DNA of 35,487 nt from Microbacterium sp. 13-71-7 (GTDB lineage: Bacteria; Actinomycetota; Actinomycetes; Actinomycetales; Microbacteriaceae), in the NCBI RefSeq assembly GCF_002257455.1, contig NZ_NCKN01000007.1:1-35487 (forward strand), given 5' to 3'. Position numbers and translations under genes: made by a program. Shown piece by piece: positions 8,522 through 35,487 of this stretch (within the stretch, counting starts at the first letter, position 1; every line of letters begins with the position of its first letter). Below the pieces are notes generated by a model, which worked only from the letters and a program-made list of their open reading frames with translations, did no database searches and was not told the origin of the DNA.

Positions 8522-9814
8522 TCATGCCCCGTAGGCGACGGATGGGCGAGCGCGCCCGCGGAAGGTGTGGAAGAGCACCACGGTGAGGGCGATGAGAGCG
8601 GGCGCACCGCCGGCGAGCAGGAAGGTGATCTCGCCACCCAGCGCGTGCACTGCCCAGCCCGCGGCGAGCGCCCCCGCCGCCTGCATGCCGGTCATGCACA
8701 CGACGTAGAGCGACACCACTCGCCCGCGGATCGCGCCGTTGGCCGAGAGCTGGGTGAGGGAGTCGTTGCCGATCATGAAGGCGGTCCGCATCAGCATCGA
8801 CGCGACCAGTCCGACGACGAACAGCCCGGCGAAGGGCGCGAGCCCGGAGAACGCCCAGACCAGCCCAGAGCCCGCGAGCAGCAGCGCGCTGTCGCGGAGG
8901 CGCAGCTGCCGCCGACGTGCCGCCAGCAGGCTGCCCAGCAGAGCACCGACCGCCGACGCCGTCTGGAACAGGGTGTAGCCGAGCGTGCCGAGGCCATAGC
9001 GCTCGTTCGCCGACCAGGCCATGAGGATCGACGCCGTGAGCGCGAAGAACGCGAGCGATGAGATCAGCAGCAGGGCGGTGCGGATCTCCGGCTTGCGCCG
9101 CACGTAGTGGATGGCCTCTCGTATCTGCCCCCGCCGGGCGGCGACCTTGATCGCCGGGTGCAGCGCGGAGCGCCGGATCCCGAGCAGCATCACGATGCCC
9201 GCGAGCGGCCCGACGGGCGCCGCCACGAGCGCCCATCCGGATCCGATGATCGCGACGAGACCGGCCGTGAGCAGGGCGCCGAGGATCCCGGCGAGCTGCT
9301 GCACCGCGGCGTTCAGACTCATCGCGTTGGGCAGCGCGCGGGTGCCGACGACCTGTACGAGCAGTACCGCGCGGGCCGGTGCCTCGAACGCCGCCGCGAC
9401 GCCGAGCAGAAGGGAGGAGGCGACGATCAGCGGCACGCCGGCCGCGCCGAGGATCGCCGGCACGCCCAGGCAGAGTGCCGCCAGCACCACGACGAGCTGG
9501 GTCAGCACGACCGTCCGCCGCGGTGCGAAGCGGTCGCTGAGCACCCCTCCCCACGGTCCGAGCACGATGGACGGCAGCAGCTGCGACGCGACGACCAGAG
9601 CGACGAGGCCGACATCGCCGGTGAGCTCGATCATCAGCGAATCCGTGGCCAGCCGCGCCAGCCATCCCGCTGCGGAGGTCGCCGCGAGGCCGGCGAAGTA
9701 GAGCCGGAAGTTCGCCTCCTGCAGCGCCGCGAAGGTCGCGCGGAAAGTCGGTCGGGTCGCGAGCACCGGCAGCGGCTCGGTGATCGGATGATCCACGGCC
9801 GACACGGAAGACAT
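8522..9814 (-). CDS. MFS transporter, EntS-like exporter
   Basis: Major facilitator of about 430 residues with 10-12 hydrophobic segments. It resembles the MFS_3/EntS group (N-F-R-L-Y-F-A-G near the N-terminus, the loop motif G-G-V-L-S-D-R-F-A-P-R-R after the second segment, and R-G-R-V-V-S-L-Y in the second half). Such proteins usually export siderophores, drugs or similar small molecules; the substrate is unknown here. The start at 9814 (M-S-S-V-S-A) is preferred because the family begins close to it, but an in-frame ATG at 9865 would add 17 residues and cannot be excluded. It is divergent from a LysR regulator, which probably controls it. Confidence 0.88.
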   Translation of the reverse strand: MSSVSAVDHPITEPLPVLATRPTFRATFAALQEANFRLYFAGLAATSAAGWLARLATDSLMIELTGDVGLVALVVASQLLPSIVLGPWGGVLSDRFAPRRTVVLTQLVVVLAALCLGVPAILGAAGVPLIVASSLLLGVAAAFEAPARAVLLVQVVGTRALPNAMSLNAAVQQLAGILGALLTAGLVAIIGSGWALVAAPVGPLAGIVMLLGIRRSALHPAIKVAARRGQIREAIHYVRRKPEIRTALLLISSLAFFALTASILMAWSANERYGLGTLGYTLFQTASAVGALLGSLLAARRRQLRLRDSALLLAGSGLVWAFSGLAPFAGLFVVGLVASMLMRTAFMIGNDSLTQLSANGAIRGRVVSLYVVCMTGMQAAGALAAGWAVHALGGEITFLLAGGAPALIALTVVLFHTFRGRARPSVAYGA

Positions 9815-9850
9815 GACCTCAACGGTACGGAGGACCACCCGATCACTCAC

Positions 9851-9877
9851 GATAATGATGGACATAACTGTTATCGG
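9851..9877. promoter_or_regulatory. Inverted repeats between MFS and LysR genes
   Basis: The divergent spacer holds CGATAA, 15 bases, TTATCG, and inside it ATAAC-T-GTTAT. Such AT-rich dyads in a LysR-target intergenic region are the usual form of a LysR binding site. It overlaps the alternative upstream start of the MFS gene. Assignment to this LysR protein is inferred from position. Confidence 0.5.
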
Positions 9878-9915
9878 ATCTGTGAATGAGCAGGACCTCG
9901 GCGGGAGGAACGAGC

Positions 9916-10800
9916 GTGTACGAGCCCGATCTGCTGCGCTGCTTCGTCGCCGTAGCCGAGAACCGCAGCTTCTCCGAGGCCGGGAGACAGCTCGGAATCA
10001 GCCAGCCCACCGTCAGCCAGCGGGTGCGACGCCTCGAGGAGCAGACCGGTCGCGCGCTCTTCGCCCGGGACACCCACAGCGTCGGCCTCACCGACGGCGG
10101 CGAGGCGATGCTCGCGTTCGCGCGCCGCGTCCTCGCCGTGCTCGATGAGGCGCACGCGTACTTCTCCGGCCCGGCGGAACGCGCCACGGTGCGTTTCGGC
10201 ACCGCTGACGACCTCGCCCTCACCCACCTGCCCGGGATCCTCCGCGATTTCCGCCGGAAGAACCCGCTCGTCGACGTCGAGATCACGGTCGGGCAGTCCG
10301 CCGCATTGGTCCGGCGCCTACGGGCCGGCGCGCTCGATCTCGTCTACGTGCGACAGGAGCCCGGGATCGCGGAGGGCCACGTGGTCCGGCGCGAGCAGCT
10401 GATCTGGAGTGCGCACCCGTCGCTGCGACTCGACCCGAGTGACGTGGTCCCCCTGGTCACGTATCCCCGACCGAGTCATTCTCGCGCCGCCGCGGTCGCC
10501 GCGCTCGAATCCGCGGGACGACGCTGGAAGGCGACCTGCACAGTCCGGGACATCGCCGGGGTCCTTGCCGGCGTCCGCGCAGGCCTCGGCGTCGCCGTCT
10601 TCCCCGGCGGGATGATGCCGCCCGATCTGGTCCGCGCGGACGCCACGCTCGGCCTCCCGCGGCTGGGCACCCTCGACTTCGCACTCATCGACGACCCGGC
10701 GGCTCCGCGTGCGCCGATCGAGGCGCTGAGCACGGCGATCATCGACTCCCACACCAACGAGGCCCGCCAGCTCCCCGGCACGCGTCCGCGGACCGATTGA
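9916..10800 (+). CDS. LysR family transcriptional regulator
   Basis: 294 residues, the normal LysR length. The N-terminal winged helix has L-L-R-C-F-V-A-V-A-E-N-R-S-F-S-E-A-G and I-S-Q-P-T-V-S-Q-R-V-R-R-L-E. A periplasmic-binding-protein-like effector domain follows (V-R-F-G-T-A-D-D at about residue 95, then a weaker second lobe with V-R-A-G-L-G-V-A-V-F-P). The GTG at 9916 is chosen because GGGAGGA lies about 6 bases upstream and the helix-turn-helix then begins at the usual distance; a start 30 bases earlier lacks a ribosome site. It is divergently transcribed from the MFS exporter. The effector is not predictable. Confidence 0.92.
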   Translation: MYEPDLLRCFVAVAENRSFSEAGRQLGISQPTVSQRVRRLEEQTGRALFARDTHSVGLTDGGEAMLAFARRVLAVLDEAHAYFSGPAERATVRFGTADDLALTHLPGILRDFRRKNPLVDVEITVGQSAALVRRLRAGALDLVYVRQEPGIAEGHVVRREQLIWSAHPSLRLDPSDVVPLVTYPRPSHSRAAAVAALESAGRRWKATCTVRDIAGVLAGVRAGLGVAVFPGGMMPPDLVRADATLGLPRLGTLDFALIDDPAAPRAPIEALSTAIIDSHTNEARQLPGTRPRTD

Positions 10801-10833
10801 CGACAGGACCGGGATCCGGGTCAGGGCCCCGGT

Positions 10834-11760
10834 TCACGGAAGGACTGAGTCGCCCAGGGCCTTCGCGAGGCCGGTGATGTCGGCCGGGCCGTATCCGCAG
10901 CAGCCGCCGAGGTAGCGGGCGCCGGCCGCGACCCATCCGCCGATCAGCGCGTGGTCGACGGTGTGCCCCTGCGACCAGGATTTGGCGACGCTGTCCCAGA
11001 CGCCGCCGCGGTTCGGGTACGCGACACCAGGAAGGCCTGTGACCTGCACCGACGTCGTGATCGCTCCGAGCACGTCCGCCTGGTCCGAGCAGTTGACCCC
11101 CGCGGCGATCAGCGCGGACGAGTCCGCGAGAGCGGCGTAGGCGTCGGCGAGCGGCTGACCGGCGCAGGTGGCCGTCCCGCGCACCGAGTAGCTGAACCAG
11201 GCCGGAAGCCCGAGGTCGTCGAGCAGGGCGACCAGCACGACCGCCTCCTCGACATCCGGGATCGTCTCCACGGCGAACAGGTCGGGTCCGGCCTCCGCGA
11301 GCAGTTCCAGCCGCGGGGCGTGGAAGTCCCGCAGCCGGGCCGCGGAGAGCCCGTAGCCGCCGCGATACTCCGAGCCGTCGCCGAGCACGGCGCCGTACGG
11401 GCCGACGGACGCCGCGACCCGCAGTCCGGGGCGGAGCGAGGCGACCTCGTCGCGCACCTCGCAGGCGATCGTCACTCCTCGGCGGATCAGAGCACGGGCC
11501 TGGTCGTCATCGAATCCCGCGGCGAGGAACCCGCGCTCGCTGGCCTGATACGTCGCGGTGGTCGCGACGTCCGCCCCTGCCGCGAAGAAGTCCCGGTGCG
11601 CCCGGGCGATCCGCTCCGGCTCGTCCGCGAGCAGTCGCGCGGTCCACAGCGCACCGTCCACGACGGCCCCCTGCTGCTCGAGGGCCGTCGACAGGCCGCC
11701 GTCCAGGATCGTGACGGGCGGCAGCCGCTCCGCGCCGCTCGCAGACACTCCAGGGGTCAT
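10834..11760 (-). CDS. mmuM: Homocysteine S-methyltransferase
   Basis: Zinc enzyme that transfers a methyl group from S-methylmethionine (or the wrong-handed S-adenosylmethionine) to homocysteine, giving methionine. At 308 residues it is family length. The zinc-binding cysteines are visible in G-V-N-C-S-D and G-G-C-C-G-Y-G-P, and the N-terminal I-L-D-G-G-L-S-T and T-A-T-Y-Q-A-S motifs are typical. The ATG at 11760 has GAGGGAG about 10 bases upstream. Immediately before it is a 3-codon frame, ATGACGCGATGA, whose stop overlaps the real start; this may be chance. It is divergent from an IclR gene. In this window it belongs to an amino-acid-metabolism neighbourhood. Confidence 0.92.
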   Translation of the reverse strand: MTPGVSASGAERLPPVTILDGGLSTALEQQGAVVDGALWTARLLADEPERIARAHRDFFAAGADVATTATYQASERGFLAAGFDDDQARALIRRGVTIACEVRDEVASLRPGLRVAASVGPYGAVLGDGSEYRGGYGLSAARLRDFHAPRLELLAEAGPDLFAVETIPDVEEAVVLVALLDDLGLPAWFSYSVRGTATCAGQPLADAYAALADSSALIAAGVNCSDQADVLGAITTSVQVTGLPGVAYPNRGGVWDSVAKSWSQGHTVDHALIGGWVAAGARYLGGCCGYGPADITGLAKALGDSVLP

Positions 11761-11798
11761 CGCGTCATCGCTCCCTCTTCGCCCGGCTGGGATCCGCG

Positions 11799-11827
11799 TG
11801 AGACCGGATACGGCGGTCGAGTACGCT
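11799..11827 (+). promoter_or_regulatory. Possible leaderless promoter of IclR gene
   Basis: TGAGAC (11799-11804), 17 bases, TACGCT (11822-11827), then 6 bases to the ATG at 11834. There is no Shine-Dalgarno sequence before that ATG, which fits a leaderless message. The -35 is a weak match, so this is tentative. Confidence 0.4.
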
Positions 11828-11833
11828 CGTGCC

Positions 11834-12643
11834 ATGCCGACCGCCGAAGATCTCGCCCAGGTCAGGACCAGCATGGGCCGCGGCTTCGACGTCCTCTCCG
11901 CGCTCGCCGAGCTCCTGTCCGACTCCCCCGCCGGCGCCACGGTCCAGGACGTCGCGCAGACGCTCGGTCGCGAGCGCTCGCAGGTCTCCCGGACGCTGTC
12001 CGCGCTCGCCGACCAGGGTCTCGTGGTGCGCGGAGAGGACCACCGCTACCGCCTCAGCTGGGGCTGGTACGCGGCCGCGCAGGATCTGACCGACCGACGC
12101 ATGCGCACCACGGGCCTTGAGGTGCTCGACGAGCTCGCCACGTCGGTCGGCGAGGCGTGCTTCCTCGGCATCCTGCAGGGCGACAGCACGCTGACGATCG
12201 TGGAGAGCATCCCGGCGGGATCGCGCATGATCGGGTCCTGGATCGGCCGCGCCTATCCGGCGTTCTGCAGCGACGCCGGCCAGGCCGTGCTGTGGGACGC
12301 GAGCGACGACGAGGTGCGCACGGTGTTCGCCCGCACCTCGTTCACCAGCACCGGCCCGAACGCGCCCGCGTCGGCGGAGGACTTCCTCGCCCGCCTGCAC
12401 ACGGCCAGGGAGCGCGGATACGCGATCGTGGATCAGGAGGCCGAGCCCGGCCTCTACTCGGTGTCGGCCCCGGTGTGGGACTTCCGGGGCGAGACTGCGG
12501 CCGCCGTCCAGATCGTCGGCGAGCGCCAGACGCTGCACCCGCGCACGACGGAGCTCGCGGCGGCCTGCGTCGCGGCGGCGGAGGCGCTTTCGGCCGCACT
12601 CGGAGCACCCGGCGGGCGCCGGGACCCGCACCGGGCTCACTGA
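11834..12643 (+). CDS. IclR family transcriptional regulator
   Basis: 269 residues. An N-terminal winged helix (R-G-F-D-V-L-S-A-L-A-E-L-L, then V-Q-D-V-A-Q-T-L-G-R-E-R-S-Q-V-S-R-T-L-S-A-L) is followed by an IclR effector domain (G-E-A-C-F-L-G-I-L-Q-G-D, Y-P-A-F-C-S-D-A-G-Q-A-V-L, and G-Y-A-I-V-D-Q-E). The ATG at 11834 fits a leaderless start. Its 3' end overlaps the tail of a second, broken IclR gene by 7 bases in convergent orientation. It is divergent from mmuM, which it may regulate; the ligand is unknown. Confidence 0.9.
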   Translation: MPTAEDLAQVRTSMGRGFDVLSALAELLSDSPAGATVQDVAQTLGRERSQVSRTLSALADQGLVVRGEDHRYRLSWGWYAAAQDLTDRRMRTTGLEVLDELATSVGEACFLGILQGDSTLTIVESIPAGSRMIGSWIGRAYPAFCSDAGQAVLWDASDDEVRTVFARTSFTSTGPNAPASAEDFLARLHTARERGYAIVDQEAEPGLYSVSAPVWDFRGETAAAVQIVGERQTLHPRTTELAAACVAAAEALSAALGAPGGRRDPHRAH

Positions 12644-13388
12644 CCGCTCGCGGCGGCGCTGAGCCGGTCGCCGACCTCGCGCAGCGCCGTCAGCGCCGCA
12701 CGCGTTCGGCGAGAGCTCTGAGGGGCGCCACTGACCGCGATCGACGCCACGATCCCCGAGCGCCCGAACACCGGGAGCGCGAACTCGACGACGCCTTCCG
12801 CGTACTCGTCGACGGCGGAGATCACCCCGGCGGTCCTGTCGCGTTCGAGGAGAGCGTGCACCTCACCGATCGTGCGTGCCGCCGCGGGTCCTCCGACGCC
12901 GACGAACTGGACGTCCTGGAGCAGCCGGGCGAGCTCATCCCGGGGGTGGTCCCAGAGCAGCGCACGGCCGGCGCCGGTGCACCAGATCGGGTGACCGCCC
13001 CGTACCGGGTGGACAGGTCGGTCGCGCCGACGCCCGTCTCGGCGCGCAGCACGAGCGCCGCCGCGCCGTCCGCGGCGCAGATCCGTGCGGTCATCCGCAG
13101 CGTCGACGCCAGCGTCCGCAGCTCCTGCCGCGCGCCCTTCAGCCACGGGGCGTCGAGGGCGGCCGCGATGCCGAAGTAGGCGTCGCCGGCGCGGAGGACG
13201 GCATCCTCGTCGCGCTGCAGGAACCGCAGCGCGCGCAGCTCCTGGGTGAGGCGCGAGACGCGGCTGCGTTCGATCCCCGTGGCGTCGGCGAGACGGGAGG
13301 CGTTGTACCCGGATCGTCCGGCCTGCTCGCGCGCGACGGCCGATCCGAGCAGCGCCAGGCCCTGCGACAGCGATGAGGGAGCCGACAT
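12637..13388 (-). pseudogene. IclR family regulator, frameshifted
   Basis: Two minus-strand frames together make one IclR protein. The first encodes M-S-A-P-S-S-L-S-Q-G through the winged helix (A-D-A-T-G-I-E-R-S-R-V-S-R-L) to L-S-T-R-Y-G-A. The second continues with G-H-P-I-W-C-T-G-A-G-R-A-L-L-W-D-H-P to the stop at 12637. The switch lies at about 12994-13001 in the run GGGGCGG and needs one extra base, or a -1 slip, to rejoin. The joined product would be about 250 residues, exactly the family length. The ATG at 13388 has GGGGAGG about 5 bases upstream; an ATG at 13475 overlapping the racemase stop (ATGA) is an alternative. This could be a true pseudogene, a sequencing error, or less likely programmed frameshifting. 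It was probably cotranscribed with the racemase and permease and regulated them. Confidence 0.8.
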
Positions 13389-23535: not shown

Positions 23536-26235
23536 TCAGCCGTGCGCACGCCTCGGACGGCCGGAGGGTGCGGTGAAGCGCGCCGCGCGACGAAGGACGC
23601 TCCGCGCACCGGGCCGGGGCGTCACAGCGGCGGCAGGATGTGCGCTCATCCGCCGGAAGTACCAGAGTTTGGCGAGTTCGACGAGCACCAGGTAGATGAT
23701 CAGCATCGCGACGAGCGCGAGGAAGAACGGCGCCGGCAGCGGTGTGAATCCCAGCAGCCCATTCGCGGGCGAGTAGGGCAGCCAGGCTCCGACGGCGATC
23801 GCGGCGAGCACCGTGACGACCAGCAGCGGAGCCGGACGGCTCCGTGTGAACGGCACCCTGCGGGTGCGGATCGCGAAGACGATGAGCGTCTGGGTCGCGA
23901 TGGACTCGATGAACCAGCCGGAGCGGAACTCGGGCGCGCCCGCGTGGAAGACAAACAGCATGAGTCCGAAAGTCGCGAAGTCGAAGAGCGACGAGATCGG
24001 CCCGAACAACAGCATGAACCGGCGAACGGCGCCGATGTCCCAGTGCGATGGCGCTCGCAACTGCTCGGGATCCACCCGGTCGGCGGGTATCACGAGCTGG
24101 CTGGCGTCGTAGAGCAGATTGTTCAGCAGGATCTGGCCGGGGAGCATCGGCAGGAAGGGCAGGAAGATCGAGGCGGCGGATGCGCTGAACATGTTGCCGA
24201 AGTTGCTGGACGTGCCCATCATCACGTACTTGATCGTGTTGGCGAAGATGCGCCGGCCCTCGGTCACCCCGTCAGCCAGCACATCGAGGTCTTTGTCGAG
24301 CAGCAGGACGTCCGCCGCGTCTTTGGCGACATCGACGGCAGAGTCCACCGAGATACCGATGTCGGCGCCGTGCAGCGCGAGGGCGTCGTTCACACCGTCA
24401 CCGAGGAATCCCACCGCACGGCCGCGATGCCGCAGCGCCCGCACAATTCGCGCCTTCTGCTCGGGCGAGACCCTGGCGAAGATCGTGGTCCGCTCGGCCG
24501 CACCGATGAGCTCGGTGTCGTCCAGCGCATCGACTGCCTCGCCGGTGAGCACCGCCGTCACATCCATGCCCAGGTCGCCTCCGGTGCGGGCTGCGACTAC
24601 CGCACTGTCGCCGGTGCAGACCTTGACTGCGACGCCGAGTTCCGCGAGCCGCTGCAGAGAGGCGCGGGCACCTGGCTTGATGGCATCGGAGAAGACGAGG
24701 AAGCCGCCCAGCGCGAGCCTCGCATCGATCCCCGGTGCCAGGACGTGGGCTCCCGGCGCCGCGCCGTGGGCGACAGCGACCACTCGGAACCCTTCGCGAT
24801 ACAACTCGTCCAGAGCCGTGGTCGCGGTCGCCGGCACCGATACACAGCGCGGAAGGACCGATTCCGCCGCTCCCTTGACGATCACCATCGGGCTCAGGCC
24901 CTCGCGCTGGACGAGCACGGTCGTCGTGCGGCGTTCGTGATCGAAGGGGATCGCGTCGAGACGGCGCCACGCGTCGAGGTCGGCGCCGTCGCGCAGGCCC
25001 GCCAGGAGTGCGGCATCGAGCGCATTGAGCCCGACCGTGGAGAGCGCGTGCAGATCCGCATCGGAAGCGAGCAGGCCCCACTCGACCAGGGGCGCATCCG
25101 CATCGCCCTCGACAGGGACCCCGCGTTCGAAGGAGATCTCCCCCGTCGTCAACGTCCCGGTCTTGTCTGTGACGAGAAGATCGAGATCTCCCAGGTCCTC
25201 GATGCACACCATGCGCTTGACGAGGACACGGCGGCGAGCCATCGCCCTCGACCCCGCCGCGAGGCTCGTGCTGACGACCGCCGGCAGAAGCTGCGGCGTG
25301 ATCCCGACCGCGATGGCGAGGGAGAACAGCAGCGACTGGATCAGCGGTCTGCCCAGCGCCACCGCGATGACGAAGATCGTCGCGGTGAGCACGATCGCCA
25401 CGAGCAGCAGGAAAGTCGAGAAACGTCCGAGACCGCGTTGGAACTCGGTCTGCGGCTCCCGCGCGGCGAGCCCGGCGGCGATCCGCCCGAATTCGGCATC
25501 GGCGCCGGCCGCCACGACCACTCCTGTCCCGGTGCCCGCGTGCACGACCGTGCCCATGAGCGCACAGCAGGTGAGGTCGCCGACTCCCATGCCCGCGGGC
25601 ACGGGAGTCGTACTCTTGACCGCCGCCAGCGCCTCACCGGTGAGGATGCTCTCATCGCATTCGAGTCCCTCGGAGTGCAACAGGCGCAGGTCCGCCGGCA
25701 CGACGGTTCCCACCGAGAGCGCCACCACATCCCCGACCACGAGCTCCGTCACATCCACGCGCTGAGCCTCGCCGGCCCGGTGCACAATCGCCGTGTGGCG
25801 CAGCCGATCGTGCATCGCGTCCGCGGCCCGCTCGGCACGGAACTCGTTGACGAAGCCGAGGCCGACGCTGAGCAGCAGGATCGCCCCGATGACCACGGCA
25901 TCCGTGGCATCGCCGACGAAACCCGCGACGATCGCCGTCCCGAACAGCATCAGCACGATCGGACTCCGCAGCTGCCTGCCCAGCACGCGCCAAGGACGGG
26001 CTCGTCGGCTGCGGATCGCATTCGGGCCCTGCCGCGAGAGCCGCTCGCGGGCATCGTCCGGGCTCAGCCCGCTTTCGATCGATCCGCACTCGGCCAGCAC
26101 CTGCGCGACGCCCTCGACGGCGCATCGGCGCACCGCGCTCGGCGAGGCAAGGGAGCCGGTCTGGGCCGGCCGCACTGCCCCTGCGCCCTCGCCCGCGGCT
26201 CTCGTCATCGCGTCCGTGGCCCGCTCAGCGGACAC
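23536..26235 (-). CDS. P-type ATPase, MgtA-like magnesium transporter
   Basis: Membrane cation pump of about 899 residues. In order: an N-terminal cation-ATPase domain ([16 protein letters not shown]), membrane pair, actuator domain with L-T-G-E-A near 199, membrane pair with G-I-T-P-Q-L-L-P, phosphorylation site D357 in [10 protein letters not shown], nucleotide domain with K-G-A-A-E, hinge G-D-G-V-N-D-A, and a C-terminal membrane domain. [15 protein letters not shown] is close to the MgtA (P3B) signature, so Mg2+ import is likely. The GTG at 26235 overlaps the phosphoketolase end by 11 bases and has GGAG about 8 bases upstream; an ATG at 26208 is an alternative. It is cotranscribed behind phosphoketolase in the dormancy cluster. 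Confidence 0.9.
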
Positions 26236-28663
26236 GGCTCCAGCTCCACTCGGCCACCTCGGGGATGTCCTCGCCGTGTTCGCGCGTGTAGGCGCGGGCG
26301 CGCAGCCGCGCGTCCTGCAGGTCCTGACGCAGCCCCGCGCAGCGCTGGGCGAGCCCCGGCACGCGGTCGATCGCATCGATCGCGAGCTGGTAGCGGTCGA
26401 GGTCGTTGAGCATGACCATGTCGAACGGCGTGGTGGTCGTGCCGTTCTCCTTGTACCCGCGCACGTGCAGGTCGTCATGCCCGTGCCGTCGGTACGCGAG
26501 CCGGTGGATGAGCCACGGGTAGCCGTGATAGGCGAAGATCACCGGCCGGTCCGCCGTGAAGATCGCGTCGTACTCCCGGTCAGGCAGCCCGTGCGGATGC
26601 TCGCTCTCCGACTGCAGGCGCATCAGGTCCACCACGTTGACCACGCGCACGCGCAGCTCCGGCAGCGCATTCCGCAGGATCTGGGCGGCGGCGAGGACCT
26701 CGAGGGTGGGGATGTCGCCCGCGGCGGCGAGCACGACATCCGGATCCTCTCCCGCGACCTCGGTGCCCGCCCATTCCAGGATCCCGAGTCCGCGCGTGCA
26801 ATGGTTCACGGCCTCGTCCATCGTGAGCCAGTTCGCAGCCGGCTGCTTCCCCGCCACCACGACGTTGACGTAGTCCACCGACCGCAGGCAGTGGTCGTAG
26901 GTGGACAGCAGCGTGTTCGCGTCGAAGGGGAGGTAGACCCGCACCACCTCCGCGCTCTTGTTCACGACGTGGTCGATGAATCCCGGGTCCTGATGGCTGA
27001 ATCCGTTGTGGTCCTGCCGCCAGACGTGACTCGTGAGCAGGTAGTTCAGGCTGGAGATCGGACGCCGCCAGGGGATCTCCCGTGTGACCTTGAGCCACTT
27101 CGCGTGCTGATTGAACATCGAGTCGACGATGTGGATGAACGCCTCGTAGCAGGTGAACAGGCCGTGGCGTCCGGTGAGGAGATAGCCCTCGAGCCACCCC
27201 TGGCACTGATGCTCGCTGAGCATCTCCATGACCCGGCCGACCCGGGCCAGGTGGTCGTCCGAGGGCAGGATCTGCGCGACCCACTGCTTGTCCGTGGCCT
27301 CGTAGACCGGTGGGGCGAGCCGGTTCGACGCGGTCTCGTCGGGGCCGAAGATCCGGAACGTCGTCGGGTTCCGCCTGATCACCTCGGCGAGCCAGGTGCC
27401 GAGCACCCTCGTGGCCTCGGCGGTCGTCGAGCCCGGCGCCGGCACGTCGACCGCGTAGTCGCGGAAGTCGGGCAGCGACAGGGGCGTCCGCAGCAGCCCG
27501 CCGTTCGCGACCGGGTTGGCGCTCATCCGCCGCTCCCCCTCCGGCGCGATCCGGCCGATGAGCTCGACGGGAGCGCCCTGGGCGTCGAAGAGCTCCTCGG
27601 GGCGGTAGCGACGCATCCAGTCCTCGAGGATCCGGAGGTGCTCCGGCGTGTCCCTGGCGTTCGCGAGCGGCACCTGATGCGCGCGGTAGGTGCCCTCCAC
27701 GAGCACGCCGTCGACCTTGTGCGGGCCGGTCCATCCCTTGGGCGTGCGCAGGATGATCATGGGCCACTCCGGCGTCGCCGTCACGGGATCGTCCGAGCGG
27801 TCCCGGCCTTCCGCCGCATCGGCGCGGATGCGCGCGATCTCGTCGAACACCTCCTCGAGAAGGGCCGCGAACCGCCGATGGATGCTCCGCGGATCCTCGT
27901 CGTCGAACCCTCCGGTGAAGATGTGCGGCGCGTAGCCGTACCCGCGGAAGAGCTCGACCAGGCGGCGCTCCGGGATGCGGGCGAGCACCGTGGGGTTCGC
28001 GATCTTGTAGCCGTTCAGATGCAGGATCGGCAGGACCGTGCCGTCCTGCACGGGATCCAGGAACTTGTTCGAGTGCCATCCCGTCGCCGCGGGTCCCGTC
28101 TCGGCCTCGCCGTCGCCGACCACGCACGTGACGACCAGGTCGGGGTTGTCGAACGCGGCGCCGAAGGCATGGCTCAGCGAGTAGCCCAGCTCGCCGCCCT
28201 CATGGATGGAACCCGGCGTCTCCGGGGCGACATGGCTCGGGATCCCCCCGGGGAACGAGAACTGGCGGAACAGGGCGCGCACCCCGTCCTCGTCCCGCGA
28301 GATCCGCGGGTAGACCTCGGAGTACGTGCCGTCCAGATAGGCGTTCGCCACCATCCCCGGTCCTCCGTGGCCGGGGCCGGTCACGAAGATCGAGCTCAGC
28401 GCCCGGTCGCGGATCACCCGGTTCAGGTGGGCGTAGAGGAAGTTGAGCCCCGGCGTCGTGCCCCAGTGTCCGAGCAGGCGGGGCTTGACGTCCTCCGGCG
28501 TCAGGGGCCGGTGCAGCAGCGGGTCGTCGAGCAGATAGATCTGGCCGGCACTGAGGTAGTTCGCCGCGCGCCACCACGCGTCGATGCTCTCCAGATCCAC
28601 CTCGGGGACGTCGCCGCCCGTGGTCGGCGCGGCGGTCTTCGTGTGCGTGTCGCTCGTGGTCAC
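26225..28663 (-). CDS. xfp: Phosphoketolase
   Basis: Thiamine-diphosphate enzyme that splits xylulose 5-phosphate (and often fructose 6-phosphate) with phosphate into acetyl phosphate plus a sugar phosphate, allowing ATP gain without oxygen. 812 residues, full length. Seen: N-terminal [23 protein letters not shown], the ThDP motif [16 protein letters not shown], and C-terminal [13 protein letters not shown]. The GTG start at 28663 has GAGAGGA about 7 bases upstream. It heads a minus-strand unit with the ATPase. The spacer to the divergent universal stress gene carries a DosR-like box. Its presence fits a hypoxia or energy-limitation response. Confidence 0.95.
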
Positions 28664-28744: not shown

Positions 28745-28758
28745 GTGACTTTCGTCCC
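28745..28758 (+). promoter_or_regulatory. DosR-box-like site between xfp and usp genes
   Basis: GTGACTTTCGTCCC, an imperfect dyad close to the mycobacterial DosR core. Its first base is exactly 49 bases before the ATG at 28794. The same 14 bases plus the next A recur at 34363-34377 before the second usp gene. Being nearly symmetric, it could also serve the divergent phosphoketolase gene 95 bases away. Confidence 0.7.
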
Positions 28759-28793
28759 AACCACTGCGACGCCCACGTCAAAAGATGAACGTC

Positions 28794-29264
28794 ATGAACA
28801 CGACTGAGAAAGCTCCCGTCCTCGTCGGCGTCGACGGCTCCGACTCCTCGCTCGACGCCCTCCGCTACGCCGCGAAGATTGCGGCAGCACTCGGAGCGCC
28901 GCTGCGAGCGATCACGACGTGGGACTACCCCGCTCTCATCGACCTTTGCCCGACGCCGGGCTGGATCCCGGACGAAGACGCGGCGGACATCCTCAATGCG
29001 GCCATCGGGAACGTGTTCGCCGGGGATCCCCCCGCCGAGCTGTCCGCCGCGGTCGTGGCAGGACCCCCTGCGTCCGTGCTCATCAAGGAGAGCCGCGACG
29101 CCGAGATGCTCGTACTCGGCAGCCGCGGACGCGGAGGCTTCACGGGACTTCTTCTCGGCTCGGTGAGCTCGACCTGTTCAACGCACGCGCATTGCCCCGT
29201 TCTCATCGTGCGGCACGAGCGGCACGAGCGGCACGACGAGAACGCCGAGCGCACCGAGAGCTGA
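28794..29264 (+). CDS. Universal stress protein UspA family
   Basis: 156 residues, single Usp domain. It opens with V-L-V-G-V-D-G-S-D-S-S and has the ATP-binding pattern G-S-R-G-R-G-G-F-T-G-L-L-L-G-S-V-S near residue 110, so it should bind ATP. The ATG at 28794 is chosen over one three codons earlier because it lies at the same 49-base distance from the DosR-like box as two other genes; no ribosome site is visible, so a leaderless message is possible. The C-terminus is His/Arg/Glu-rich (R-H-E-R-H-E-R-H-D-E). Usp genes are the commonest DosR-regulon members in mycobacteria. It converges with devR. Confidence 0.92.
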   Translation: MNTTEKAPVLVGVDGSDSSLDALRYAAKIAAALGAPLRAITTWDYPALIDLCPTPGWIPDEDAADILNAAIGNVFAGDPPAELSAAVVAGPPASVLIKESRDAEMLVLGSRGRGGFTGLLLGSVSSTCSTHAHCPVLIVRHERHERHDENAERTES

Positions 29265-29275
29265 CCGCGATCGAC

Positions 29276-29310
29276 GGTCGGACCCGCGGTCAGGCGCCGC
29301 GGGTCCGACC
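29276..29310. terminator. Bidirectional hairpin between usp and devR
   Basis: Perfect inverted repeat with 14-base arms (GGTCGGACCCGCGG and complement) around a 7-base loop. The right arm lies inside the 3' end of devR, whose stop codon is in the loop. No T-run follows, as is common for actinobacterial terminators. Confidence 0.75.
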
Positions 29311-29934
29311 TCGCTCGATCTCGAAGACCGCGGCCTGCGTACGGTGGTCGAGCCCAAGCTTGCTGAGTAAACCCGAGACGTAGTTCTTCACCGTCTTCTC
29401 CGCCAGGCCCAGCCGTTCGCCGATCTGCCGGTTCGTGAGCCCGTCGGCGATGAGCGCCAGGATCTGCCGCTCGCGCAACCCCAACGATCCGAACCGAGGA
29501 TCCTCACCGGGCGCTTCGCGCATCCGCTGCATCGCATTGCGTTCCGCACTCGGATGCAGCAGTCGCTTGCCCGCCGCGACTTCGCGGATGGCCTTAAGCA
29601 GCTCCGCGGCGCGGACGCTCTTCAGCAGGTACCCGGCGGCGCCGGCGACGACGACGGCGGCGAACATCGCGTCATCGTCGTCGTAGGCCGTGAGGATGAG
29701 GCACTGCACCTCAGGATGGTCCTGACGGATCTGCCGGCACAGGTCGATACCGTTCCCGTCCGGGAGCCGGACGTCGAGCACTGCGACGTCCGGGCGCGTC
29801 GCTGCGATCCGTGCCAGTGCGTCACGCGTGGTGGCGGCCTCACCGATCACCGCCAGATCCGGCTGCCCGTTGATCACTCCGGCGAGCCCCTGGCGAACGA
29901 TCTCGTGATCGTCGACGAGGAAGACAGTGCTCAT
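29290..29934 (-). CDS. devR: DevR/DosR-like response regulator, NarL/LuxR type
   Basis: 214 residues and strongly DosR-like throughout. The receiver has V-F-L-V-D-D-H-E-I-V-R-Q-G-L, phosphorylation site D54 in V-A-V-L-D-V-R-L-P-D-G-N-G-I, and K105 in Y-L-L-K. The LuxR helix-turn-helix has L-A-E-K-T-V-K-N-Y-V-S-G-L-L-S-K-L-G; the K-T-V-K-N residues that contact DNA in mycobacterial DosR are kept, so a similar DNA site is expected. The ATG has GGGAGGGAG about 6 bases upstream. Unlike the mycobacterial devR-devS operon it is divergent from the kinase gene, with a 122-base spacer. It is predicted to activate the surrounding stress and redox genes when phosphorylated. Confidence 0.93.
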   Translation of the reverse strand: MSTVFLVDDHEIVRQGLAGVINGQPDLAVIGEAATTRDALARIAATRPDVAVLDVRLPDGNGIDLCRQIRQDHPEVQCLILTAYDDDDAMFAAVVVAGAAGYLLKSVRAAELLKAIREVAAGKRLLHPSAERNAMQRMREAPGEDPRFGSLGLRERQILALIADGLTNRQIGERLGLAEKTVKNYVSGLLSKLGLDHRTQAAVFEIERGRTRGA

Positions 29935-30010
29935 GAGATCTCCCTCCCGTTCTGTTCATCATGCCCCCAGGCGTAGCGAACCACGGGGCGAAGGTCCTGC
30001 GCTGACTCTA

Positions 30011-30044
30011 GACTGCCAAGGGTCAGGGACTGCCAAGGGCCAGG
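30011..30044 (+). repeat. Tandem 17-bp repeat in devS leader
   Basis: GACTGCCAAGGGTCAGG is followed directly by GACTGCCAAGGGCCAGG, one mismatch, and then a GACAGAGG start of a third unit that provides the ribosome site. It ends 12 bases before the devS ATG. Each unit boundary makes GGGAC, a DosR half-site word. Confidence 0.75.
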
Positions 30045-30056
30045 GACAGAGGTGCC

Positions 30057-31712
30057 ATGGACGACGATCCGCTCACGTTCCCCGATCTTCCTCGGCTGGA
30101 GCTCGAGAAGAACATCGCGGAGCTGATGGCCCGCGCCCAGCAGGTCCTTACGGCTCAGGGACGTCTGCGCAGCCTTCTCAGCGCCACACGTGCCGTGAGC
30201 GAGGATCTGGACCTCGACACAGTGCTGCGGCGCATCGTCAATGCGGCCATCGAGCTCGTCGGTGCTCGCTACGGGGCGCTCGGAGTGATCGACGAGGACG
30301 GTCTGCTCGAGCGCTTCATCCACCAGGGCATCTCCCCCGAGATCGTCGAGGAGATCGGTGCTCCTCCCCGAGGGCACGGGCTGCTCGGCGCCGTGATCGA
30401 TGCCGGCGAGACGATCCGGATTCCGCGCATCGCCGATGATCCGCGCTCGGTCGGCTTCCCAGAGCATCATCCGCCCATGGATGCGTTCCTGGGCGTACCG
30501 ATCCGCGTGCGGGACCAGACCTTCGGCAATCTCTACCTGACAGACTCCGACAAGCCGACCTTCTCGCACGAGGACCAGGAGATCATCGAGGCGCTCGCGA
30601 CCACGGCCGGGGTGGCGATCGAGAACGCCCGTCTCTACGCGGAGACGCGACGGCGCGAACGTCTCGGCACCGCGATCTCCGAGATCACCGCGGCCCTGCT
30701 GTCGCCCGATTCAGTGGACGCCCTGGGCATCGTGGCGGACCGGGTGGCCTCGATCATCCCCACCGATCTCGTCACGATCATCGTTCCTGACGAGGACGAC
30801 AGGCTCCGTATCAACGTCGCTCGCGGGGTGGGCGCCAGGGATTTGGAGGGCGCTCGCTACCCGGCGGCCGATTCGATCGCCGCCATCGCGATCGCCGAAG
30901 GCCGACCGGTCGTCGGCCGTCTCCCCGATCCCGTCGACGTCGTGCTGCGCCCGTTCGGCTTCACCGTGGCAGTGCCGCTCATCACCGCCGGCGACACTGC
31001 CGGCGCCCTGTGCGTGTCACGCAGGGGAAGCACGTTCACGCGCACGGAACTGCTCACGATCACGGACTTCGCTTCGCAGGCGGGGATTGCCATCTCGCTG
31101 GCGCGCGCCCGCGAGCAACGCCAGATCCTCGACATCGTCGAGGACCGCGGCCGCATCGCCCGCGACCTCCACGACCACGTGATCCAGCGCCTGTTCGCCA
31201 CAGCGCTCGGACTGCAAGGGCTGGCGTCAGCGCATCCAACAGTCGCCACCGATCTCGATCGCCACATCGAAGAACTCGACGGCGCGATCTCAGACATCCG
31301 CACGGCGATCTTCGCCCTTCGCGCACACGACAGCGCGACCAGCGGTCTTCGGCGCCGTCTGCTCGCGATCATCTCCGACTACGATCCGCGCCCAAGGATC
31401 TCCTTCACCGGACCAGTGGACCTGGTCGTCACCGGCGACCTCGCCGACGACCTCGTCGCGGTTGTGCGCGAGTCACTCGCGAACGTCACCCGACATGCAC
31501 AGGCATCGTCCGCGCTCGTAGACGTCCGGCTCTCGGACACCGAGGTGATGGTCACGATCGAGGACGACGGCGTCGGTCTGCCTGCGAAACTGACGCCAAG
31601 CGGCACCGCCAACCTCGCCGCCCGCGCGGCCCGACGTGACGGTGAATACGCCATCGGGCGTCGACCAGAGGGCGGCACCCGCGTCCTCTGGAGCGCCCCC
31701 CTCCAGGGATGA
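30057..31712 (+). CDS. devS: DevS/DosS-like GAF-GAF sensor histidine kinase
   Basis: Soluble sensor kinase of 551 residues. A first GAF domain spans about 55-195 with Y-G-A-L-G-V-I-D-E-D-G, F-I-H-Q-G-I and S-V-G-F-P-E-H-H-P-P-M; the H137-H138 pair matches the region holding the haem-ligand His of mycobacterial DosS. A second GAF follows at about 215-350, then HisKA_3 with R-I-A-R-D-L-H-D-H-V-I-Q-R-L-F (H372 phospho-acceptor), and an HATPase domain with E-S-L-A-N-V-T-R-H-A and D-D-G-V-G-L. No membrane segment is present. The ATG at 30057 has AGAGG about 5 bases upstream. It likely senses O2, NO, CO or redox state through haem and phosphorylates DevR. Haem binding is inferred. Confidence 0.93.
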   Translation: MDDDPLTFPDLPRLELEKNIAELMARAQQVLTAQGRLRSLLSATRAVSEDLDLDTVLRRIVNAAIELVGARYGALGVIDEDGLLERFIHQGISPEIVEEIGAPPRGHGLLGAVIDAGETIRIPRIADDPRSVGFPEHHPPMDAFLGVPIRVRDQTFGNLYLTDSDKPTFSHEDQEIIEALATTAGVAIENARLYAETRRRERLGTAISEITAALLSPDSVDALGIVADRVASIIPTDLVTIIVPDEDDRLRINVARGVGARDLEGARYPAADSIAAIAIAEGRPVVGRLPDPVDVVLRPFGFTVAVPLITAGDTAGALCVSRRGSTFTRTELLTITDFASQAGIAISLARAREQRQILDIVEDRGRIARDLHDHVIQRLFATALGLQGLASAHPTVATDLDRHIEELDGAISDIRTAIFALRAHDSATSGLRRRLLAIISDYDPRPRISFTGPVDLVVTGDLADDLVAVVRESLANVTRHAQASSALVDVRLSDTEVMVTIEDDGVGLPAKLTPSGTANLAARAARRDGEYAIGRRPEGGTRVLWSAPLQG

Positions 31713-31747
31713 GCACGATCACCGGCCCGGCGGCGTACCCGACTCAC

Positions 31748-31761
31748 GTGACAAAGGTCCC
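31748..31761 (+). promoter_or_regulatory. DosR-box-like site upstream of RNase-dehydrogenase fusion
   Basis: GTGACAAAGGTCCC, a weaker dyad with the GTGAC and GTCCC halves kept. Its first base is exactly 49 bases before the ATG at 31797, as for the two usp genes. Confidence 0.6.
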
Positions 31762-31796
31762 TCCCCGCGCGTCGCGGCGCGTGTTGTGTGACCTCT

Positions 31797-34343
31797 ATGA
31801 GCGCAACACTGACCTTCCTCGGAGCAACCGACACCGTCACAGGATCCCGTTACCTGGTCGAGACGGGCAAGAACAGAATCCTTGTCGACTGCGGGCTCTT
31901 CCAGGGCTACAAGATCCTGCGCGAACGGAACTGGGCGCGCTTCCCCGTGGAACCAGCGAGCATCGACGCCGTCGTCGTCACGCACGCGCACCTCGACCAC
32001 ACCGGTTACCTGCCTGCGCTCGTACGGGACGGGTTCCGGGGAGCCATCCACACCACCGTCGGAACAGCCGAGCTCAGCACACTGGTGCTGCCGGACAGCG
32101 GCCGTCTCCAGGAGGAACAGGCAAACTACGCCGAGCGTCGACATAGCTCGAAGCATGCGCACCCACGGCCGCTGTACACGGAACGCGACGCCATGGCGGC
32201 ACTCGATCGCTTCGAGCCGCACCCGTTCGACGTCGGCTTCGAGGTCGGCGACATCGGGGTCTCGTTCGCACCCGCCGGACACATCCTGGGTGCTGCACAG
32301 GTGCGCCTCGACGTGGACGGCACCCGCGTGCACTTCACCGGCGATCTGGGCCGCGCCGACGACCCGCTGATGTGCGCACCCCGCGACCTCGAAGCGACGG
32401 ATGTGCTCGTCTCCGAATCGACCTACGGAGACCGCGCCCACCCCGCCGAGGACCCGGAGGCCGCGCTCGCCGACATCATCACCAGGGTGTGCCGGCGCGG
32501 TGGCGTCGTGCTGCTGCCGGCCTTCGCGATCGGCCGGGCAGAGACGCTGCTGCTGCACCTCAGCCGTCTGCGCGCCGCCGGCAGGATCCCTGACGTACCA
32601 CTGTTCCTGAACAGCCCGATGGCGGTGAGCGGCGCCGAGATGTACGCCCGCCACCCCGAGGAACACCGCATCTCCGCCGACGAGTTCCAGCGCATGTACA
32701 AAGATGTGACGCTGGTGCGCAGCATCGAGGAGTCCAAGGCGCTCAACACCCGCGGAGGTCCGGCGATCATCATCTCCGCGAGTGGAATGCTCGAAGGCGG
32801 ACGGATCCTGCATCACCTCGCCTCCTACGCGCCGGACCCGCGCAACGCGATCGTGCTGACAGGGTTCCAAGCCGGGGGCACACGCGGAGACGCACTGCAG
32901 CGCGGCGAGCGCACCCTGCGGATCTACGGACAGGATGTGCCGATTCTCGCCGAGGTCCACTCGCTGGAGATGCTCTCCGCACATGCCGACGCCAGACAGA
33001 TCCTCGACTGGATGCGCACCGCCCCGCAGGCACCCGCGCAGGTGTTCCTCACCCACGGCGAGCCAGGCTCATCCGACACCCTGCGTGGTCGGATCCGTCG
33101 CGAACTCGGCTGGAGCGTTCGAGTGCCGCATCTGGGAGAAGCGGTCGAGCTGGACACACTCCGCCGCAGGGCGTCCGACGAGCCCGCGTCCATGTCCTCG
33201 GTCTCTCCTGCCGTTTCCACCGCCCCTAACGCCACCGAAGCGACGAGCCCGGTCACGGTGGCGCCGGAGGCTCTGGACACCGCACCGGCAGACTCCGAGG
33301 CTCCGTCCGCGACGATGCGCGCCGCGGTCGTCTCATCGTTCACCGAGCCCATCACGGTGCAGGACGTGCCCGTGCCTGTCCCGGGCACTGGGCAGGTGCT
33401 CGTGCGCATCGAGATGAGCGGTCTCTGCCACACCGACATCCATGCCGCGCGCGGCGACTGGCCGGTGAAGCCACCGCTGCCCTTCATCCCGGGACACGAG
33501 GGCATCGGCCGCGTGGACGGCCTCGGTCCGGGAGCCACCGCTCCTGCTGCCGGGACGCGCGTCGCACTGGCGTGGCTCGGATCCGCATGCGGCTCCTGCC
33601 GGTACTGCGTGACCGGGCGTGAGAACCTCTGCCTGGCCCAAAAGAACACCGGTTACGCGGTGAACGGAGCGCACGCAGAATATGCGGTGATCGACGCCCG
33701 CTTCGCCGTGCCTGTCCCAGACTCCGTCACGTCGCTCGATGCCGCACCGCTGACCTGCGCCGGGGTCACGACCTACGCCGCGATCAAGGCCGCCCGTGTG
33801 ACGCCGTCCGAGCGCGTCGCCGTCTTCGGGATCGGCGGCCTCGGGCACCTCGCGATCCAGTACGCGCGCCTCGTCGGAGCGGAGGTCATCGCCGTCGACG
33901 TGAGCGATGAGAAACTCGAACTCGCCACGATGCTCGGCGCAGACCACGTCGTCAACGCTGCGAAGACGGATCCGGTCGAGGCGATCAGGGCGCTCGGCGG
34001 TGCGGACGCCTGTATCGTGCTCGCCGTCGCTCCCGCCGTGTTCGACCAGTCCTATCGTGCTCTCGCTCGGGGCGGACGGCTGGTGCTCGTCTCGCTGCCG
34101 AAGGACGGCACTTTGACGTTCCCCGTATTCGATACGGTGCTGAACGGCATCGAGATCATCGGATCCATCGTCGGCACACGCGAAGATCTCGCCGAGGTCT
34201 TCCGGCTGCACGCCCTCGGTCGCACAACCGTCGTCGCACAGACACGGGACCTGTCCACGGTGGCCGCGTCGATGCAGGAAGTGCTCGATGGTTCCGTACC
34301 GGCTCGACTCGTCTTCGACTTCGACGTCGAGGACGCCAGCTGA
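31797..34343 (+). CDS. Fusion: beta-CASP metallo-beta-lactamase RNase plus zinc alcohol dehydrogenase
   Basis: 849 residues in one uninterrupted frame. Residues 1 to about 460 are a CPSF/Ysh1-like MBL RNase: metal motif T-H-A-H-L-D-H (H63, H65, D67, H68), G-H-I-L-G-A-A, F-T-G-D-L-G-R, beta-CASP region S-E-S-T-Y-G-D-R, and RMMBL motif V-H-S-L-E-M-L-S-A-H-A-D. An Ala/Pro/Ser/Thr linker spans about 460-506. Residues 507-849 form a complete medium-chain AdhP-like dehydrogenase: G-L-C-H-T-D, G-H-E-G-I-G, C-G-S-C-R-Y-C structural zinc site, and G-I-G-G-L-G-H-L coenzyme site. The ATG at 31797 sits 49 bases after a DosR-like box; a GTG three codons earlier is less likely. Each half is individually common in stress clusters; I know of no established fused form. 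RNA decay and aldehyde/alcohol redox are the inferred activities. Confidence 0.9.
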   Translation: MSATLTFLGATDTVTGSRYLVETGKNRILVDCGLFQGYKILRERNWARFPVEPASIDAVVVTHAHLDHTGYLPALVRDGFRGAIHTTVGTAELSTLVLPDSGRLQEEQANYAERRHSSKHAHPRPLYTERDAMAALDRFEPHPFDVGFEVGDIGVSFAPAGHILGAAQVRLDVDGTRVHFTGDLGRADDPLMCAPRDLEATDVLVSESTYGDRAHPAEDPEAALADIITRVCRRGGVVLLPAFAIGRAETLLLHLSRLRAAGRIPDVPLFLNSPMAVSGAEMYARHPEEHRISADEFQRMYKDVTLVRSIEESKALNTRGGPAIIISASGMLEGGRILHHLASYAPDPRNAIVLTGFQAGGTRGDALQRGERTLRIYGQDVPILAEVHSLEMLSAHADARQILDWMRTAPQAPAQVFLTHGEPGSSDTLRGRIRRELGWSVRVPHLGEAVELDTLRRRASDEPASMSSVSPAVSTAPNATEATSPVTVAPEALDTAPADSEAPSATMRAAVVSSFTEPITVQDVPVPVPGTGQVLVRIEMSGLCHTDIHAARGDWPVKPPLPFIPGHEGIGRVDGLGPGATAPAAGTRVALAWLGSACGSCRYCVTGRENLCLAQKNTGYAVNGAHAEYAVIDARFAVPVPDSVTSLDAAPLTCAGVTTYAAIKAARVTPSERVAVFGIGGLGHLAIQYARLVGAEVIAVDVSDEKLELATMLGADHVVNAAKTDPVEAIRALGGADACIVLAVAPAVFDQSYRALARGGRLVLVSLPKDGTLTFPVFDTVLNGIEIIGSIVGTREDLAEVFRLHALGRTTVVAQTRDLSTVAASMQEVLDGSVPARLVFDFDVEDAS

Positions 34344-34362
34344 GCCGCCCGACCAGGTCCGC

Positions 34363-34376
34363 GTGACTTTCGTCCC
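34363..34376 (+). promoter_or_regulatory. DosR-box-like site upstream of second usp gene
   Basis: GTGACTTTCGTCCC, identical to the site at 28745-28758. It starts 20 bases after the fusion gene stop and 49 bases before the usp ATG. Confidence 0.7.
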
Positions 34377-34411
34377 AGTCCCGGCCGAACCCGCGGAGGA
34401 ACCTCGACCGC

Positions 34412-34870
34412 ATGGACAGCATCGACAGCAACCGGATCATCGTCGGCGTCGACGGATCAGCCTCCTCCGTCGCCGCTCTGCGCTATGCCGCCCGGCTCGC
34501 GGACGTGCTCGACGCACCTCTCGAGGTCGTGACCACCTGGTACTACTCATCGATCACGGGAGCGGAACTCGTGATCGAGTGGACTCCTGAAATCGTCGCA
34601 GACGACACCCTGGCTAAGACCATCGACAGGGCCTTCAGCGACGCCCCGCCGACACGCCTGATCCGCACCGTTGCCGGAGGCACGCCGGCCGCGACACTGA
34701 TCGAGATGAGCAAGAGCTGCCAGATGCTCGTCGTCGGCAACCGCGGCCACGGCGGATTCGTCGGCCTGCTGCTGGGATCGGTCAGCGCCGCATGCGTGCG
34801 GCACGCGCACTCACCCGTCCTCGTCGTCCGCCCGTGTGATCTCTACACCAACACCGAGGAAGCATCATGA
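34412..34870 (+). CDS. Universal stress protein UspA family
   Basis: 152 residues, a paralogue of the usp at 28794 with the same layout: I-I-V-G-V-D-G-S-A-S-S at the start, T-T-W-Y-Y at the end of the second strand, and the ATP-binding pattern G-N-R-G-H-G-G-F-V-G-L-L-L-G-S-V-S. The ATG at 34412 has GGAGGA about 10 bases upstream and an upstream DosR-like box at the same distance as its paralogue. It follows the RNase-dehydrogenase fusion by 68 bases and probably has its own promoter. It is the last recognisable gene of the dormancy cluster. Confidence 0.93.
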   Translation: MDSIDSNRIIVGVDGSASSVAALRYAARLADVLDAPLEVVTTWYYSSITGAELVIEWTPEIVADDTLAKTIDRAFSDAPPTRLIRTVAGGTPAATLIEMSKSCQMLVVGNRGHGGFVGLLLGSVSAACVRHAHSPVLVVRPCDLYTNTEEAS

Positions 34871-34999: not shown

Positions 35000-35487
35000 T
35001 CACGGAAGATCGACGCCGACGCTCGCCCCCCGACCTGAAGGTTGCGGCGTAGGTCGCACAACTAGCGGCGTGGAGTCACAAGATGTCGCAGGGTCAATCA
35101 CGGGAAGGTGAAGTGTGATGCGTGCCTCAGCGGCCGCGGGGCCACCGGCCGTGTCGATCGGCAGCTTCAACGCGATCATCTCGGCGATCGTGTCAGTCGC
35201 CGCGATGCGGCGGTAGTAGGCGCCGTAGACCCTGAGCTCGAGCGTGGTCAGATCACTCCGCACGGCTTCGGGCCACCGGGCGTTGGCGGAGGTGAGCGCG
35301 CCAGCCTCGCGGGCCGCGACCTGCGCCGCATGAGCAGCTGCCGACCTGATCCGAGCCGTCTGGGTCGAGTCGAACGCGAATGTCAGTTCGTAGGCCGCCG
35401 CGTTCCCTGGGCACACGATCTCGAGGTACTTCGGCGCGGCCTGCGCGACAGTCATCATGGTCGGGGTCGGTTTCGGTGCGTGGGCTG
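35000..35487 (-). CDS. Hypothetical, probably exported protein, 5' partial
   Basis: The frame is open to the right window edge, so the true start is probably beyond it. The visible N-terminal part reads A-H-A-P-K-P-T-P-T-M-M-T-V-A-Q-A-A-P-K-Y; the Pro/Thr run suggests a linker after a signal peptide or lipobox outside the window. The body has two cysteines (I-V-C-P-G and T-S-C-D-S) that could form a disulfide, and an Ala-rich helical stretch (A-A-A-H-A-A-Q-V-A-A-R-E-A). Alternatively the gene starts at the double ATG ending at 35458, giving 152 residues. No family recognised and no link to the dormancy cluster is evident. Confidence 0.55.
   Translation of the reverse strand, partial: AHAPKPTPTMMTVAQAAPKYLEIVCPGNAAAYELTFAFDSTQTARIRSAAAHAAQVAAREAGALTSANARWPEAVRSDLTTLELRVYGAYYRRIAATDTIAEMIALKLPIDTAGGPAAAEARITLHLPVIDPATSCDSTPLVVRPTPQPSGRGASVGVDLP

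Follow-up and report, generated by a model that had tools for sequence, protein, structure and literature searches.

The window analysed here, a stretch of 35,487 nucleotides from Microbacterium sp. 13-71-7, carries an open frame in which a predicted beta-CASP RNase continues into a predicted zinc alcohol dehydrogenase. We put at roughly three in four the probability that this frame encodes a genuine bifunctional single chain, which would have arisen when two genes belonging to one DosR/OsdR-type cluster were joined, a single time, in a small Microbacterium-like clade. The gene and its neighbourhood comprise the following features.

26225–28663, minus strand: phosphoketolase (XFP), by Pfam XFP_N, XFP and XFP_C.
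28745–28758, plus strand: DosR/OsdR-like box flanked by the divergently oriented phosphoketolase and universal stress protein genes, by pattern search.
28785–29264, plus strand: universal stress protein, by Pfam Usp.
29290–29934, minus strand: DevR/DosR-like response regulator; best solved match DevR 3c3w, E 5.9e-66.
30057–31712, plus strand: DevS/DosT-like sensor kinase with two GAF domains, HisKA_3 and HATPase, by Pfam.
31748–31761, plus strand: DosR/OsdR-like box GTGACAAAGGTCCC, 49 bp before the fusion ATG, by pattern search.
31797–33146, plus strand: MBL/beta-CASP/RMMBL RNase domain, residues 1–450, by Pfam, the TTHA0252 match and motifs.
33147–33314, plus strand: Ala/Pro/Ser/Thr-rich linker, residues 451–506, located where two-gene relatives have their intergenic region.
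33315–34343, plus strand: AdhP-like zinc alcohol dehydrogenase, residues 507–848, and stop, by Pfam, NCBIfam and the 1rjw match.
34363–34376, plus strand: DosR/OsdR-like box GTGACTTTCGTCCC preceding the universal stress protein gene that follows the fusion, by pattern search.
34412–34870, plus strand: universal stress protein downstream of the fusion, by Pfam Usp.

The frame at 31797–34343 (plus strand) runs from ATG to TGA and encodes 848 residues (~90 kDa) with zero internal stops; an in-frame GTG at 31788 is an alternative start that would add three residues. Five Pfam domains scored above the curated cut-offs, namely Lactamase_B (19–195), Beta-Casp (250–367), RMMBL (380–444), ADH_N (531–642) and ADH_zinc_N (681–804). 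At the sequence level this confirmed a genuine single-frame two-domain gene with both halves complete, in agreement with the 849-codon single frame reported in a preliminary description of this DNA; the metal and cofactor motifs that it had ascribed to both halves were likewise recovered, residue by residue, in an alignment of the five fusions introduced below. No close second copy of either half was found in the genome, where the nine other matches all lay in the dehydrogenase half, some extending into the linker, and the strongest of them by E-value had 34% identity.

In the N-terminal half, the MBL, Beta-Casp and RMMBL domains follow one another in order, each above its gathering score, and the closest solved structure is the Thermus thermophilus RNase TTHA0252 (residues 8–450, E 1.5e-70). 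The residues D31, HAHLDH (63–68), H162, D183, E207, H396 and H420 are all present, as aligned to TTHA0252 and read by eye in the five fusions; they include the HxHxDH signature and what we take to be motifs 1, 3, 4, A, B and C. This half is thus a predicted RNase of the TTHA0252 type, with RNA cleavage as its predicted activity.

The best solved match to the C-terminal half is 1rjw (E 8e-109, over residues 1–336 of that half), with which its zinc ligands and NAD motif align. C544, H567, E568, C598, C601, C604, C612, C654, GxGGLG and D701 are identical in all five fusions, and presumably represent the catalytic and structural zinc ligands, the Rossmann GxGGxG and the Asp at the end of beta2. 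The NCBIfam AdhP equivalog model (NF006940) gave 327 bits against a cut-off of 344, and we therefore describe the half as an AdhP-like zinc, NAD-type dehydrogenase rather than a certified AdhP, with predicted ethanol/acetaldehyde activity. Known AdhP relatives are homotetramers with ethanol/acetaldehyde activity. Over the 10 pairs of fusions, dN/dS was 0.10–0.23 for the RNase part and 0.045–0.14 for the dehydrogenase part; both halves are under purifying selection.

Between the aligned domains, the linker of the window gene measures 56 codons (residues 451–506). In the AlphaFold2 model (mean pLDDT 76, pTM 0.53), residues 461–503 fall below a pLDDT of 50, which makes the linker of ~45 residues given in the preliminary description a fair estimate. 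The input alignment for this model had 16 rows (five fusions, one RNase and 10 dehydrogenases), only 6 of which cover the RNase half, and that half has its own stretches under 50, such as 34–45, 66–69 and 329–345; because of this, the model supports a floppy joint but no arrangement of the domains. The linker is probably disordered, as judged from the model, which argues for two independently folded domains.

The window genome is a draft of 426 contigs, and two genes could have been joined by a sequencing or assembly error. The chance of this is next to nil, because the fusion recurs in other genomes, where its linkers are always in frame. In a species-wide scan (one genome per species, GTDB 220), the domain order proposed earlier for searching in related genomes was found, as the same full-length fusion, in at least four further genomes among the 80 loci listed: the MAGs SZAS-4 and CK_MAG-45 and the isolates Microbacterium sp. 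USTB-Y and M. azadirachtae DSM 23848 (L009, L011, L010 and L012, respectively). They share with the window gene 82–86% identity in the RNase half and 92–95% in the dehydrogenase half. Since the fusion DNA of SZAS-4 is identical to that of locus L089 in genome G064, there are at least five distinct fusion sequences among the matches listed. Their linkers count 56, 54, 73, 50 and 39 codons (117–219 bp), all stop-free and with the frame kept, and are hardly alignable in sequence. The longest, in USTB-Y (73 codons), contains short near-repeats of the ARGAE/ARGAK type, which suggests growth by repeat expansion.

Beyond these genomes the fusion appears rare. In the genus sample (198 genomes) it was present only in G000 and G064 among the matches listed, which reach down to about E 1e-41 and in which the fusions rank top. 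In the family (199 genomes), order (198) and phylum (198) samples, each taken from a larger group and overlapping with one another, it was found only in G000, and among 359 matched plasmid records none covered 80% of the fusion query. Several candidates were rejected on opening their DNA. A listed frame of 1277 aa at the RNase and dehydrogenase of G002 proved to be two frames with a universal stress protein between them; the loci of long listed frames in G017, G508, G422 and G427 had no fused partner; and a match in G761 spanning query residues 6–802 was two frames separated by a stop. Matches to other long listed frames (e.g., G440 and G481) cover the RNase half only. The G761 locus (L171, contig C98, 4562–7093), from a distant actinobacterium, encodes an RNase relative (39% identity), a stop and then, in the same frame, a different zinc dehydrogenase (35%), and so gives a further, separate example of such genes as neighbours.

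Relatives with two separate genes had been named beforehand as an observation that would speak against the fusion. The four closest relatives among the matches listed are all fused, whereas other genomes of the genus have the two genes apart. For the trees of each half, rows were chosen from 156 loci by length, identity and absence of stops, giving 37 distinct RNases and 97 distinct dehydrogenases. The five fusions formed one clade with SH-aLRT 100 in both of these quick trees, built without bootstrap, and a single origin of the fusion fits this result, since the same clade is recovered from the two halves separately.

We opened 18 genus loci with a standalone RNase, leaving out a nineteenth, weaker match in G109. 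Six of the 18 have, within the stretch opened, an AdhP-like gene that is at least 64% identical: it follows the RNase directly in G001 and G144, is separated from it by a universal stress gene in G002, precedes it in G172, and lies at a distance of about 5 kb in G097 and G086. The remaining 12 had none within the stretch opened; in one of these, G145, an AdhP-like gene lies about 21 kb off. In both G001 and G144, 109 bp separate the RNase stop from the dehydrogenase ATG, and this interval holds a box-like site (two mismatches) and a strong Shine–Dalgarno (SD) sequence. Because the fusion linker occupies the place of the intergenic region in such a pair, read-through of an adjacent RNase–dehydrogenase pair would be the simplest history. 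The adjacent two-gene ancestor is only inferred, as the closest standalone genes of either half are arranged differently: of the nearest RNases, G252 has its dehydrogenase about 8 kb away and G190 has none in the 16 kb opened, and around the nearest standalone dehydrogenase (G085) no such RNase was present in the 13 kb opened.

The existence of the adjacent arrangement in G001 and G144, together with a linker sequence that is hardly conserved, would also suit a neutral history, in which loss of a stop codon between co-regulated neighbours was simply tolerated and each half works as before. This is possible, although we rate it below an even chance: the gene is unsplit in all five fusions found, whose pairwise dS is 0.34–0.83, and the separate control signals of the dehydrogenase are gone or weak. 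The neutral history overlaps with the preferred reading of a bifunctional chain, which needs no gain from tethering, and the odds of the two are not exclusive.

The control signals were examined by searching the 200 bp upstream of each gene for GKGAC-N4-GTCCC in either orientation, with expectations taken from shuffles. All five fusions have an exact box at −48 or −49 before the RNase start. Exact boxes precede 8 of the 37 RNase genes (the five fusions and 3 of 32 standalone genes) against 0.1 expected, and boxes with at most one mismatch precede 15 of 37 (10 of 32 standalone) against 1.6 expected; the other 22 standalone genes, including those of G190, G252, G001 and G144, have no box within 200 bp. 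Before the dehydrogenases, 61 of the 98 sequences have a box when up to one mismatch is allowed (5.4 expected) and 11 have an exact copy (0.24 expected), the 98 including the five fusions. No fusion (0/5) has a box with at most one mismatch within 200 bp before its dehydrogenase start.

The ribosome-binding signals, taken as the computed energy with which the bases directly upstream of the start pair to the 16S tail, point in the same direction. Before the dehydrogenase start the energy was −2.5 to −5.9 kcal/mol in all five fusions, compared with −7.2 to −11.3 kcal/mol in all 18 standalone relatives of the genus (at least 64% identity), which supports the earlier remark that no internal ribosome site stands out. 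A weak SD is by itself compatible with internal initiation, because among standalone relatives across the Actinomycetota 26 of 95 are also weaker than −6 (the median, computed over 94, was −7.5). In the fusions, then, the separate control signals of the dehydrogenase are gone (the box) or weak (the ribosome site); as the fusion is apparently a single event, the SD and box comparisons amount to one evolutionary observation, not five.

These figures bear on whether two working products are made, AdhP and the RNase being freed either by internal initiation at 33315 or by proteolysis of the linker. The start Met of the dehydrogenase is retained in all five fusions, the window gene has a GAGG 14 nt before this ATG (−5.9 kcal/mol, the strongest of the five), and an exposed, probably disordered linker may be prone to proteases. 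We consider such a pair of products unlikely, however: all 18 standalone genus relatives have a stronger SD, a box before the dehydrogenase is absent from all five fusions, and the linker keeps its frame in five genomes although its length changes.

The fusion's own ATG in the window lacks a clear ribosome-binding site (31739–31796, −5.1 kcal/mol); the corresponding pairing is stronger in three of the four other fusions (−8.7 to −9.5). With the box 49 bp upstream, the fusion transcript may be leaderless.

The neighbours of the fusion (a DevR-like regulator, a DevS-like kinase, two universal stress proteins and a phosphoketolase) appear to mark the cluster as DosR-type. The five best solved matches of the kinase all lie over its first GAF region, four of them titled DevS, and its C-terminal region matches DosT and DevS chains. 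The features of DosR/OsdR systems found here are thus a DevR-like regulator with a DevS-like GAF kinase, and a palindromic putative box upstream. The exact sequence GTGAC-N4-GTCCC occurs 15 times in the genome, compared with three for the reversed control pattern, and 3 of the 15 sites fall in the cluster, one ahead of the fusion and one ahead of each of the two universal stress genes. A universal stress relative also follows the fusion in USTB-Y, CK_MAG-45 and M. azadirachtae; none was matched after that of SZAS-4. The label "stress-induced" given to the fusion in the preliminary description rests on the DosR/OsdR-like box and the neighbouring genes; the chain is probably produced when oxygen is low.

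From 28785 onwards, the five genes of the cluster (28785–34870) have a GC3 of 0.82–0.83, with 0.88–0.94 in many other frames of the window and 0.84 in the neighbouring ATPase gene; the cluster is possibly acquired DNA. At 35000–35458 (minus strand) lies an open frame of 152 aa, without a Pfam match, whose GC3 is 0.77.

Under the preferred reading of a bifunctional chain, low oxygen would lead the DevS/DevR-like pair to turn on one mRNA for the whole protein. The beta-CASP half would degrade RNA, slowing translation and releasing nucleotides, and the AdhP half would reduce acetaldehyde to ethanol and regenerate NAD+, alongside the neighbouring phosphoketolase. The flexible linker would fix production at 1:1 and could put four RNase heads on one AdhP tetramer, so that tethering perhaps serves to display the RNase there; allosteric communication between the halves would not be required.

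A stronger proposal is that RNA cutting by the tethered RNase is gated directly by what the AdhP tetramer has bound, NAD(H) or substrate. The motifs are retained in both halves, genes of the two types lie close together in 6 of the 18 genus loci opened, and an RNase stands beside a different zinc dehydrogenase in the distant actinobacterium of L171; but the linker, which is long, probably disordered and variable in both length and sequence, does not resemble an allosteric connector, and we find direct gating improbable. Of the earlier interpretation as a whole, the genuine and unusual fusion with both halves complete, the DevR/DevS-like cluster and the upstream box stand, and redox control of RNA decay by the fusion is possible as a hypothesis. 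Its fullest form, a redox-responsive RNA-decay machine in which an AdhP tetramer bears four RNase heads and the binding of NADH/NAD+ or alcohol/aldehyde tunes their cutting, is a long shot. If true, oxygen loss would directly set the rate of mRNA or rRNA breakdown, and freed ribose would supply both the phosphoketolase encoded nearby and the ethanol step of the chain itself. More generally, a natural fusion is a hint that its halves serve one process. This one links a predicted RNase to a dehydrogenase of fermentative type, and its place in a DosR-type cluster suggests that cells entering dormancy may break down RNA and dispose of NADH as parts of one task. Split-gene relatives provide ready controls, and M. 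azadirachtae DSM 23848, an isolate in a strain collection, makes the fusion testable.

Among known systems, TTHA0252 (PDB 2dkf, 3iek) resembles the RNase half over residues 8–450 and differs in being a 431-aa chain without a dehydrogenase. According to its published study, this enzyme has 5′–3′ exo- and probably endo-RNase activity, and its disruption affects global mRNA levels, with a larger number of genes changed in log phase than in stationary phase (PMC4229858); this speaks somewhat against a role in dormancy. The NCBIfam model of the related Type VII CRISPR beta-CASP protein Cas14 (NF045584) matches the RNase half with E 2.6e-110, but its 369.6 bits lie far below the cut-off of 800; the model of the archaeal aCPSF1, also a related beta-CASP protein, gave E 1.3e-73 and 248.3 bits, again far below its cut-off of 580.2. 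In two alphaproteobacterial plasmids (L166 and L167, ~8980–12811, those opened of the 359 matched records), the RNase is followed by annotated thymidine phosphorylase family and ribose-phosphate diphosphokinase genes, a gene order that suggests RNA-to-sugar-phosphate salvage. Such a pathway is not supported in the window, since its genome has one 28% match to that phosphorylase and, of 167 loci compared, the other 165 have none.

The dehydrogenase half differs from 1rjw, a standalone chain of 339 residues, in being the C-terminal domain of a fusion. The DosR (DevR)/OsdR regulons of Mycobacterium and Streptomyces have in common with the window cluster a DevR-like regulator, a DevS-like kinase, universal stress proteins and palindromic boxes, and the OsdR consensus AGGGCCGATCGGCCCT, as given in the OsdR paper (PMC5069765), is similar but not identical to the window box. 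In the same paper, two of the targets predicted for OsdR in Streptomyces are a gene for a zinc-containing dehydrogenase and a universal stress gene that shares its transcript with a "zinc-deprived alcohol dehydrogenase", each with an upstream site (PMC5069765); a dehydrogenase in such a regulon is therefore already known. Words starting with "lactamase" or "phosphoketolase" do not occur in the main text of that paper. A literature search of titles and abstract openings found no report of a fusion of a beta-CASP RNase with an alcohol dehydrogenase. Compared with these systems, the domain architecture appears to be new and so far restricted to one clade; the families that it combines are both known, and so is the type of regulon in which it lies.
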